From the NCBI GenBank assembly GCA_937918935.1, contig CAKZSI010000052.1:1-39663 (forward strand): 39,663 nt of DNA, read 5' to 3'. The position numbers and the translations under genes were made by a program. Each line of letters opens with the position of its first letter. The stretch's first letter is position 1. Positions 22,466 to 25,188 of this stretch are shown piece after piece. The notes under the pieces were generated by a model. That model did no database searches and was not told where the DNA came from. It saw only the letters and a list, made by a program, of their open reading frames with translations. The DNA comes from an uncultured Chloroflexales bacterium. Lineage in GTDB: Bacteria; Chloroflexota; Chloroflexia; Chloroflexales; Chloroflexaceae.

Positions 22466-24160
22466 CTACCATCCCCCGCCGGAGCGGCCCCCGCCGAAGG
22501 AGCCGCCCGCGCTTCCCCCGCCAAACGAACCGCCCGACCCGTGGCGGCTGCCCCAACCGCTGCCACCGCTACTACCGCCGCCACTGCTCCAACTGCCGCT
22601 GCCGCCCCAGCCGCCTCCAGCGATAATGATCGGGCCAGGGCCGGGCATGTTCGGCCGGTCGTAGGAGCGGAGCTGGCGCTCGATGTCGCGGGCCTCATCA
22701 CGGATGCGCTCGGCGCGTTTGAGGGCCTTGTTCAGGGCTTCCTCCCCGGTGATCGGCAGGCGGATCTGGTCGAAGTCCTGCCGGAGGGCCTGCAAACGCT
22801 GGAACAGGTTCGCGGGTGCGCGCACACGCACGCGCGTGCCGACGCTCTCGGCGGAGTTGAGCCAGTTGCGCGCCTCGGCCAGGGTGCCATTGAGCTTGCT
22901 CCGAAGCTGTTCCAGGCGTTGCACGTCACCATACACCGCCTGGTAGACCGTCTGCGACTCGCGCTGCAACTCCTGATAGGCGACGCTCAGTTGCTCGAGC
23001 GCCGCGCGCCGCTCTTCTTCCTCCACCTGGCGAGCGCGGGTGTCGAGGGCCCGGGTCTGCTCGAAGCGCTGGAGCAGCTTCTTCACCGCAGCGATGCTGG
23101 CGGGAGTAATGTCAGCATCGTGGACATTGACGAACCTGGCGATCTTGTTGACCTCGCCGGTGATAATGGGCTGGAGACGATCGGCCTGCTGGCGGAGCTT
23201 CTGCATCGTCTCGGCCTCGGAGCGGGCCCGGGCCAGGGCCTCGTCGGCGAGACGGTCGGCGGTGGTGGCTGCCTCGGCGAGGCGCAGCCAGTCGGGTTTT
23301 TCCCGTTGGGCCTCGGCCCGGGCAATCGCCAGTTGTGCGGCGGCCTCGCGGAGTTGTTCCTCAGGCGCCTTGCTCACATCGGGGTCGTGGGTGCGCACGA
23401 ACTCTTCACCGGCAGCAATGCTGCGCTCGGCCTCGGCAAGCAGGGCGCGGGCGGCGTCGCGGGCCTGCTCGAGAGCCTTGAGACGCTCGATAATTGCCTC
23501 GATCAACTGGTCCACGAAGGCCAGTTCCTGCTCTGCGGCGTCAAGCTGTTCCTGGGCGAAGAGGAACTGCTGGGCCTCCATGGAATTGGCGGTGCGGGCG
23601 CGCTCCCAGTGCTCATGGGCGCGATCGGCAGCAGCCTGGGCCTCGCTGCCGTTGCCGCGGATGTCGTTCCAGGCGCTCTCGGCGAACTCGTCAACGATGT
23701 CAAAGACGCGGCGCCCCTCAGCGATGCGTTCGGCGGCCCGCAGGCCACGTTGCTCAAGCTCGGCGATGCGCCGGGTGTTGGCCTCGTAGAGCGCGGGCGC
23801 GCCACTGCCCTGGGCGATGGCGGCCTCCAGATGCGCCTGGGCCGCCTCGAGCCGGGGGAGGGTGGCGTCCGGTTCGCCGCGCTGCAGGGCAGCGGCGGCC
23901 TCGGCCAGGGCCTGATCGGCCTCGTCCAGGGCCTCACGGCTGGCGTCGAGCCGGAAGCCCTGCCGTTCAACGGCGATGCCGCTCTCGCGCTCCTGTGAGA
24001 TGCCGGAGCGGATCTGGGCGTGGCGTTCGGCGATGGCGCCGATCTGCTGGCTGCGTTCCGACGCTGCCCGGGCGGCAGCAACGGCATCGGCGAAGGCGAA
24101 CTTCGCCAGGGCCGCCGCCGCGCGCTCCACCTGCTGCTGGACCGGGGCGAGGGCCGCCAT
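22466..24160 (-). CDS. Coiled-coil C-terminal half of TPM-domain protein (frame -1 relative to first half)
   Basis: 564 residues from the first ATG, but the open frame continues upstream to the A7 run at 24217-24223. It is almost wholly alpha-helical coiled coil (for example ALYEANTRRIAELEQRG, LLAEAERSIAAGEEFVRTHD, VEEEERRAALEQL). It ends in a Gly/Ser-rich tail with repeated GGGSSGGSGWG and SFGGGSAGG units and a final GGGW. Such Gly-Ser-Trp tails are usual at the C-terminus of TPM-domain (YgcG-like) membrane proteins, so this is the missing end of the gene at 24211-25188. The ATG at 24160 has only a distant GAGGAG (12 bases), so independent initiation would be weak. Without frameshifting it would be a cytoplasmic fragment. 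Confidence 0.8.
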   Translation of the reverse strand: MAALAPVQQQVERAAAALAKFAFADAVAAARAASERSQQIGAIAERHAQIRSGISQERESGIAVERQGFRLDASREALDEADQALAEAAAALQRGEPDATLPRLEAAQAHLEAAIAQGSGAPALYEANTRRIAELEQRGLRAAERIAEGRRVFDIVDEFAESAWNDIRGNGSEAQAAADRAHEHWERARTANSMEAQQFLFAQEQLDAAEQELAFVDQLIEAIIERLKALEQARDAARALLAEAERSIAAGEEFVRTHDPDVSKAPEEQLREAAAQLAIARAEAQREKPDWLRLAEAATTADRLADEALARARSEAETMQKLRQQADRLQPIITGEVNKIARFVNVHDADITPASIAAVKKLLQRFEQTRALDTRARQVEEEERRAALEQLSVAYQELQRESQTVYQAVYGDVQRLEQLRSKLNGTLAEARNWLNSAESVGTRVRVRAPANLFQRLQALRQDFDQIRLPITGEEALNKALKRAERIRDEARDIERQLRSYDRPNMPGPGPIIIAGGGWGGSGSWSSGGGSSGGSGWGSRHGSGGSFGGGSAGGSFGGGRSGGGW

Positions 24161-24210
24161 AGGGTCGGCAAGCTCCTCACCCAGGACCGCAAGCCGGTCG
24201 GCAGCGCCGG

Positions 24211-25188
24211 TCAGGCTTTTTTTGCCCGCTCGACCTCCTCGCGCGCCTGCCGCGCCTGTTCATCGAGTTCGGTGCGGAGTCGTTCAACCACCGCCAGATC
24301 CTCGCCGATCTCCCTGGCCTCAGCCACAATCGTTTCGTAGGTGGCGGCGGCCTGAAGCAACTGCTCGTTGGCAGGCTTCTCGCGGCGCTCCAACTGCTCG
24401 GCGGTCTCCTTGAAACGGAGCTGGGCCGCGACAAAGCGATCGCTGGCGGCGCGCTGGAGCTGGCTCAGCCGCTCCACTTCAGCCGGAGGGTAGGAGACCC
24501 GGTCGAACTTCGCCTTCTCCGCGGCGGCGTTGAAACGCTGGCCGAGAGCGGTGATAAGCGCCGCGGCCTCCTCGCGGGCATCTTTGAGCCGCTGCTGGGC
24601 GGCGCCACGGGCCTTCGCCGCACGCCGCCGGCGAGCCAGGGCGTAGCCGCCTGCGCCCAGAGCCGCCAGGCCGCCAACACCAACGACAATCGGTGTTGGA
24701 TCAATGTTGGTGCCGCCGCCGGGTTGGGGTGGGTTCTTTATCGACTCCTCAATCGCCCCGAGGGCCGTGGTCACGCCGCGGGTAAAATCGCCGGCGGAGA
24801 GACCAGGGTTAAGGGCGGTGGTGCGGATGTACTCGGCATTGTCGTTGACTTCGAGTGCCGCGTTCCAGTCATCGCCATAGCTGATCTCGCTATAGCGCTG
24901 GTTGAGCGCGACATAGATGGCGATGGCATTGGTGCGCATCGCGCCGTCGCTGCGCATCAGGCCGTCGTCCACGAGACGTTCGGTAAAATCGTTGGAACCG
25001 CCGTCTTCCACCAGGTAGACCGCCACGGCGGCCCCCCGGTTGACCAGGGGGCGGGCGGCTCGCTCGACCGCGTTCCGGTCCAGGCGCCCGCCGGGGTCGC
25101 GGATGATCAACTGGCCCTGGGCGAGGGCCGGAACCGCCAGCAGCAGCAGGAGGGCCACCGCGGCTGCGAGACGGATCAACTGGCGCAT
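24211..25188 (-). CDS. TPM-domain (YgcG-like) membrane protein, first half
   Basis: 325 residues to a TGA at 24211. The signal peptide MRQLIRLAAAVALLLLLAVPALA is followed by a TPM_phosphatase domain (about 28-150) with LDRNAVERAARPL, VAVYLVEDG, AIYVALNQRYSEISYGDDW and FTRGVTTALGAIEESI. A membrane helix (PIVVGVGGLAALGAGGYALA) precedes RRRR, and a cytoplasmic coiled coil reaches EEVERAKKA-stop. The stop truncates a helix in mid-run. A -1 shift at A-AAA-AAA continues it as KKSLTGAADRLAVLGEELA into the gene at 22466, giving about 907 residues. AGAGGAG precedes the ATG. It starts 21 bp after the gamma-synthase stop, so the two probably form an operon. Confidence 0.88.
   Translation of the reverse strand: MRQLIRLAAAVALLLLLAVPALAQGQLIIRDPGGRLDRNAVERAARPLVNRGAAVAVYLVEDGGSNDFTERLVDDGLMRSDGAMRTNAIAIYVALNQRYSEISYGDDWNAALEVNDNAEYIRTTALNPGLSAGDFTRGVTTALGAIEESIKNPPQPGGGTNIDPTPIVVGVGGLAALGAGGYALARRRRAAKARGAAQQRLKDAREEAAALITALGQRFNAAAEKAKFDRVSYPPAEVERLSQLQRAASDRFVAAQLRFKETAEQLERREKPANEQLLQAAATYETIVAEAREIGEDLAVVERLRTELDEQARQAREEVERAKKA
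24217..24239 (-). promoter_or_regulatory. Candidate programmed -1 frameshift site (A-AAA-AAA with upstream SD)
   Basis: On the minus strand AGGAGG (24239-24234) is followed by 10 nt and then A7 (24223-24217), read in the first frame as GC-A-AAA-AAA-G. This is the canonical X-XXY-YYZ phasing. Re-reading one A enters the frame of the downstream half with no stop until 22466. A GACCG/CGGTC stem can form just downstream. In dnaX, a Shine-Dalgarno element at about this distance stimulates -1 shifting on A-AAA-AAG. A one-base sequencing error in the A run is the main alternative. Confidence 0.55.

Follow-up and report, generated by a model that had tools for sequence, protein, structure and literature searches.

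The window analyzed here, the whole stretch of DNA of 39,663 bases, contains on its minus strand a gene for a TPM-domain membrane protein whose reading frame is broken in two. The first open reading frame (ORF1) ends with GAG CGG GCA AAA AAA GCC TGA, and the second half of the gene lies in the -1 frame. When one A of the run is reread, the frame passes into AGC CTG ACC GGC and stays open to a stop codon at 22468-22466, giving a protein of 907 residues with the C-terminus SGGGW. These observations agree with a preliminary description of the locus, which had proposed that the frame breaks at a run of seven As and resumes one base back, an unshifted product of 325 residues and a joined protein of about 907; 28 of 49 orthologues are split in the same way. 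The features of the locus are collected in Table 1.

Table 1. Features of the TPM-domain gene and its neighbors (window positions, except where another locus, L, is named).
Feature	Position	Strand	Basis
Whole TPM-domain gene, both halves	25188-22466	minus	split at GCA AAA AAA GCC TGA, second half in -1 frame
ORF1, unshifted product of 325 aa with signal sequence, TPM domain, membrane helix and start of helical region	24211..25188	minus	ORF and Pfam
Part of the long product read in the -1 frame, 583 aa past the shift, with the helical region and a Gly-rich tail (GGGW at its end)	22466..24217, stop codon included	minus	matches in relatives cover it wholly or for the most part
AGGAGG, SD-like putative stimulator, 10 nt before A7	24234..24239	minus	exceeds synonymous expectation among split and among in-frame genes
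Putative slippery heptamer A_AAA_AAA, in phase	24217..24223	minus	A7 in 28/28 split and 16/17 in-frame orthologues
0-frame TGA, one codon past the heptamer	24211..24213	minus	sequence and split orthologues
5′ arm of long-range helix, 11 nt, 6 nt past A7	24200..24210	minus	RNAalifold, pair counts
131-nt loop closed by the helix; two further arms predicted in the window's genus (three-way junction)	24069..24199	minus	folding
3′ arm of long-range helix, 11 nt	24058..24068	minus	RNAalifold, pair counts
TerB-domain genes in relatives, examples	L094:9963-10895, L096:8117-9094, L112:7895-9082		PF05099

Just 3′ of the gene, the sequence TTCAGGCAGGGGCGTGGGGAAACCGGGTTGCCCCAC is present twice (22400-22366 and 22326-22292). 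Of 43 named loci, 15 have a TerB-domain (PF05099) gene 3′ of the TPM gene, and a number of the others are short contigs; a search of the window for PF05099 gave no match. On the other side, cystathionine gamma-synthase is encoded directly upstream in five of five genomes of the window's genus and in all eight genomes of family f3, and it was not found in the approximately 1 kb examined upstream in most other relatives.

The TPM domain (PF04536) is recognized in ORF1 with 25.7 bits, above the Pfam gathering cut-off of 22.1, and six of 15 in-frame relatives also match it (E up to 0.01), with Viridilinea mediisalina absent among the matches listed. A predicted model of the 917-amino-acid V. mediisalina protein (pLDDT 82.7, pTM 0.42) begins with an N-terminal helix, followed by a compact domain at the position of the TPM domain (residues 28-153), a likely membrane helix from residue 181, long helices that continue up to residue 846, and a disordered tail after that. 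The best Foldseek matches of this model are TPM structures (Psb32, TLP18.3 and R. marinus Rhom172_1776; probability 1.00, E 0.008-0.013), no match had an E of 0.001 or better, and a sequence search for a solved relative found none at E up to 0.01. A likeness to EzrA was set aside as not significant (Foldseek E 0.25). The known TPM-domain proteins share the fold of the N-terminal domain with the protein described here, which unlike them has a helical region of approximately 650 residues and a probable frameshift. In the V. mediisalina model the slip lysines (325-326) lie within a helix that spans residues 276-337; the short form would therefore consist of the TPM domain and the membrane helix, together with the greater part of the first helical bundle.

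Within the order, 82 genomes were searched, 68 of which match; 55 carry the TPM gene, the site is readable in 51, and 49 were counted. Those left out are G009 (A6 at the site) and G020 (A8 and several frame breaks), four genomes whose contigs end short of the site (G013, G014, G027 and G032), and 13 with a TPM or distant match only (49+2+4+13=68). The A6 and A8 runs stand on contigs with coverage of 3.8 and 2.1, respectively, in the attributed records, and are likely sequencing errors. At the level of the class, the second half of the window's gene matched 53 of 150 sampled genomes, all but G085 within the window's order; the distant homologues in G085 and G049 have no A run at such a place.

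Twenty-eight of the 49 orthologues, from two families (f1 and f3) and with identities down to approximately 32%, are split, without exception by -1 and at an A7 run that the 0-frame stop follows one codon later. They include Herpetosiphon aurantiacus DSM 785, whose genome is complete, Ca. Chloroploca asiatica, Ca. Oscillochloris fontis and Ca. Viridilinea halotolerans. In several of them the stretch open in both frames is just 16-19 nt long, with the -1 frame closed again just upstream; taken with the identical -1 split at the same A7 in so many genes, this argues that the split is not due to chance. A further 17 orthologues, among them Chloroflexus, Roseiflexus and V. mediisalina, read through without a break and still have the run in phase (16 with A7, one with A10), and alignment A2 places one extra base just after the run. 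In these in-frame genes a -1 slip reaches a stop after 3-6 codons and would yield nearly the same short form. All 17 have a -1 stop within six codons, compared with 4.2 on average and at most 10 in any of 500 synonymous randomizations, although these genes represent only about four lineages. Related rows were counted separately here and in the SD and codon tests, and shuffle counts throughout overstate independence because the rows are related. Judging from these sequences, slippage seems to be selected also where the short form is its result. The preliminary description had taken it that slippage yields the second, longer form; this holds for the split genes and has to be amended for the 17 in-frame orthologues, in which the slip would make the short form.

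The run is missing from the remaining four orthologues, all of family f4, which implies that the short form is dispensable in those four. Uninterrupted relatives that lack a slippery run had been named beforehand as evidence that would speak against recoding; these four are of that kind, and the other 45 are not. The alignment of orthologues that had been proposed as a check came out in favor of recoding, with a conserved A7 accompanying the split frames in all 28 split genes and a GAGG upstream in 23 of them. On the protein tree the split/unsplit label needs four changes, and also four when well-supported branches alone are trusted, a count that comes from a single gene tree without an established root; three in-frame groups are nested in f1.

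The run at the slip site has exactly seven As, in the canonical phase that the preliminary description had assigned to it, and no other A run in the window exceeds five bases; one T7 run is present. Among the 45 orthologues with a run, its length is exactly seven in 44, the A10 of genome G017 being the sole exception. In the in-frame genes, GCA-AAA-AAA ranks first among three-codon windows in synonymous conservation (687 scored columns), tied after rounding with the overlapping window one codon on. AAA AAA is used in 17 of 17 of these genes, whereas the remaining conserved Lys columns mix AAA with AAG (for example, seven AAA and 10 AAG). In the split group the same window ranks third, behind windows at +52 codons, which is the 3′ arm of the helix described below, and at +24. 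This highly conserved window 24 codons past the slip lysines falls in the loop, outside the proven helix arms. A genome-wide search for the motif A7-NNN-TRACC found one occurrence in 4.6 Mb; the backward control also occurs once, so this search says little.

The sequence of the heptamer itself counts to some degree against a ribosomal reading, because in Escherichia coli A_AAA_AAG is a far better slip site than A_AAA_AAA (PMC5009743). The window's genome codes for both tRNA-Lys(ttt) and tRNA-Lys(ctt), as found with Rfam and ARAGORN (40 of 45 tRNA loci scanned, the other five overlapping these); a tRNA pattern search, with its five matches judged by eye, had given no Lys tRNA. The presence of two Lys tRNAs may fit AAA AAA rather than AAA AAG, in that a CUU tRNA on AAG would re-pair poorly with AAA.

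Upstream of the heptamer, the preliminary description had noted AGGAGG at a distance of 10 nt, and this element is both present and stronger than expected. An SD-like element also lies 10 nt upstream in E. coli dnaX. Energies of pairing were calculated with the anti-SD sequence as it is generally known. The SD energy is -9.76 in the split group, compared with -7.36±0.53 in synonymous shuffles (0/200), and -10.04 in the in-frame group, compared with -6.61±0.78 (0/200); genes without A7 have no excess (-3.48, with -3.78 expected). GAGG occurs in 23 of 28 split, 16 of 17 in-frame and one of four no-A7 genes, and the five split genes without it have a weaker purine-rich stretch. By eye, the spacing from the SD-like sequence to A7 is 10-13 nt across orthologues.

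The preliminary description had also suggested a downstream stem, without coordinates. The structure that is conserved there is a long-range helix of 11 base pairs that closes a loop of approximately 130 nt. Given the 45 sites with a run, from 20 nt before to 185 nt after it, RNAalifold returned a single consensus helix, pairing columns 35-45 with 177-187; across orthologues it starts 6-7 nt after A7 and closes a loop of 119-131 nt. Pairing is found in 96.8% of 495 cells, compared with 90.9±0.5 after shuffling, 38 cells are changed on both sides (9.9±2.3 expected), and the covariation score is 0.342 (0.220±0.010 expected); none of 500 shuffles reached any of these values. Two weaker tests point the same way: six of 11 pairs have changes on both sides (3.8±0.9 expected; 9/500 shuffles) and there are 15 further pair types (12.9±1.0 expected; 32/500). 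Shifting the partner by 1-3 positions reduces pairing to just 25-54%, and synonymous codon randomization reduces the paired fraction from 0.968 to 0.663±0.020. Compensatory changes occur in several lineages. In columns 36-186, C-G has become U-A in Roseiflexus and V. mediisalina and is kept in V. halotolerans; in columns 42-180, U-A is replaced by C-G in the Oscillochloris group (f1g5) and in seven of eight Chloroflexus; and in columns 43-179, G-C is replaced by A-U in Chloroploca.

At least 10 of the 11 helix pairs can form in 28 of 28 split genes, in 15 of 17 in-frame genes (the exceptions being G017 and G012) and in none of the four no-A7 genes. The helix is part of the minimum free energy structure at 41 of 45 sites, with a mean probability of 0.91. 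It is missing from that structure in G017, G012, G016 and G023, although in the last two the pairs are possible (probability 0.81 and 0.45, respectively). G012, an in-frame Chloroflexus MAG, has kept A7 and lost the helix, and this counts against the frameshift reading. Inside the loop, one of the two arms predicted in the window's genus recurs as a suggestive second helix (columns 47-54 with 109-116), which pairs well in many split genes and does not do so in Roseiflexus or most Chloroflexus. An extra basal pair at columns 34/188 of alignment A2 appears possible by eye in in-frame lineages, as G-C in Roseiflexus and as A-U in six of eight Chloroflexus; it would restore a spacer of 6 nt and so offset the additional base.

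Could the split be an artifact, or mark the border between two separate proteins? A base lost from the run by sequencing error or by decay into a pseudogene would be in keeping with a draft assembly of 85 contigs, in which a one-base difference would join the frames. The same split, however, recurs in 28 genomes of different species, including the complete genome of H. aurantiacus, and the second half is conserved; the relatives already contradict this explanation, to which we give practically no credence. Translation of ORF2 as a protein of its own, begun by reinitiation near the ORF1 stop, could draw on an ATG in the ORF2 frame that overlaps the end of A7 in seven of 28 split genes, Herpetosiphon among them. 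In the other 21 the codon at that place is AGC, AGT or ATC, alignment of the joined protein to uninterrupted orthologues shows no gap where the halves meet, and reinitiation leaves the retention of A7 in in-frame genes unexplained; we consider it very improbable.

Transcriptional slippage deserves more weight, although it too is improbable. Here RNA polymerase would add an A at A7, and the mixed mRNAs would give the two forms, as the preliminary description had offered as an alternative. The site is a homopolymer run; An with n>7 is listed among the runs that serve transcriptional realignment, and it has been argued that dnaX may rely on this mechanism even where its run is shorter (Antonov 2013, PMC3711429). 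Against this, the run stays at seven in 44 of 45 genes, short of the approximately nine or more A/T of the Thermus dnaX type, and selection against slippage is reported to be evident at nine nucleotides in a large proportion of genomes (Baranov 2005). The SD-like element and the helix are both selected, and both are absent together with A7, which again argues for the ribosome. We know of no need for an SD-like element, or for a helix 6 nt downstream, in transcriptional slippage. Ribosomal slippage is thus the better supported explanation for A7, and transcriptional slippage may apply in one genome. In the in-frame gene of G017 (L064, 2843-2852, minus strand) the run is A10, and both the helix and the G-rich SD are lost; this lineage may have gone from ribosomal to transcriptional slippage.

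These results have mechanistic implications. An in-phase heptamer of the X_XXY_YYZ type, an SD-like stimulator upstream that is frequent without being universal, a downstream RNA structure, and a -1 frame that in relatives leads to a conserved product or a prompt stop are all features of bacterial -1 programmed ribosomal frameshifting, and each of them is seen in the sequences examined here. An SD-like element, a heptamer and a helix 6-7 nt ahead are its classic parts, which favors the ribosomal reading, and recoding at A7 is supported by conservation over families, by selection on heptamer, SD-like element and helix, and by their joint absence from the no-A7 genes. Thus, the site is very probably a -1 programmed ribosomal frameshift that gives rise to TPM-domain membrane proteins of 325 and approximately 907 amino acids. 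We propose that 16S rRNA base-pairs with the SD-like stretch of the mRNA behind the ribosome, that the helix 6 nt ahead holds the ribosome with two Lys-tRNAs on A_AAA_AAA, and that a share of ribosomes then re-pairs one base back. In the window's genome, unshifted ribosomes would stop at the TGA and release the short membrane protein; shifted ribosomes would make the long form, which extends through the long helical region to the Gly-rich tail. The extra base after A7 would reverse these roles in Chloroflexus, Roseiflexus and V. mediisalina, the long form being made without a shift and the short form with one.

We infer action in translation, as well as any function of the short form. The purpose is probably to set a ratio of two forms, not to rescue a broken gene, and the role reversals suggest that the efficiency of frameshifting is probably substantial. 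Because the signal is mostly kept through swaps caused by single-base indels, selection may act on the ratio of the full-length, membrane-anchored helical protein to the truncated form. We lean, by a little, toward a two-product switch whose signal (SD, A7 and helix) outlasts the frame arrangement, with indels repeatedly swapping the unshifted form and selection keeping a ratio that is perhaps near one to one. As a guess, the role of the two forms could be ratio-controlled assembly at the membrane.

Several known systems resemble this one. The -1 frameshift of dnaX (tau and gamma in E. coli, with the reversed form in Chlorobium and others) likewise has an A-rich heptamer, a downstream stem, a pair of short and long products, a stop one codon after the slip, and reversed roles in some lineages (PMC5009743, PMC3711429). 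Unlike dnaX, the gene described here codes for an unrelated protein, uses A_AAA_AAA instead of A_AAA_AAG, has helix arms about 130 nt apart, and has kept its signal through several reversals within one order. Branched or distant structures 3′ of the slip site are found in IS911 (three-way junction) and IS3411 (apical loop-internal loop) (PMC5009743); those are transposon genes, in contrast to a cellular gene with one conserved closing helix. In csoS2, a 50% shift gives long and short forms of a cellular protein; that protein is a different one, and the account in PMC5009743 apparently includes no SD stimulator for it. Bacteria seem to have few conserved -1 frameshifts in cellular genes, those named in PMC5009743 and PMC3711429 being dnaX, csoS2, Mg-chelatase, DUF111 and a spore germination protein. 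In the literature searched on the TPM domain or on frameshifting in Chloroflexus or Herpetosiphon, supplements aside, we found no report of this gene, and the word TPM is absent from the main text of Antonov 2013 (PMC3711429).

-1 frameshift signals themselves are known; the probable frameshift in this TPM-domain membrane protein appears to be new, and it comes with an unusual helix and a repeated reversal of roles. It adds a membrane protein to the known cases, and with it a natural experiment in which a single signal would act one way in some lineages and the reverse way in their sisters. Routine annotation would probably list a split gene as a pseudogene or as two genes, and would overlook the short form of an unsplit one. 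If the reading is true, a helix that closes a branched loop of approximately 130 nt would be uncommon as the stimulator in a chromosomal gene. In the green non-sulfur bacteria and their relatives, an old and conserved signal seems to allow one gene to make both a short and a long protein.
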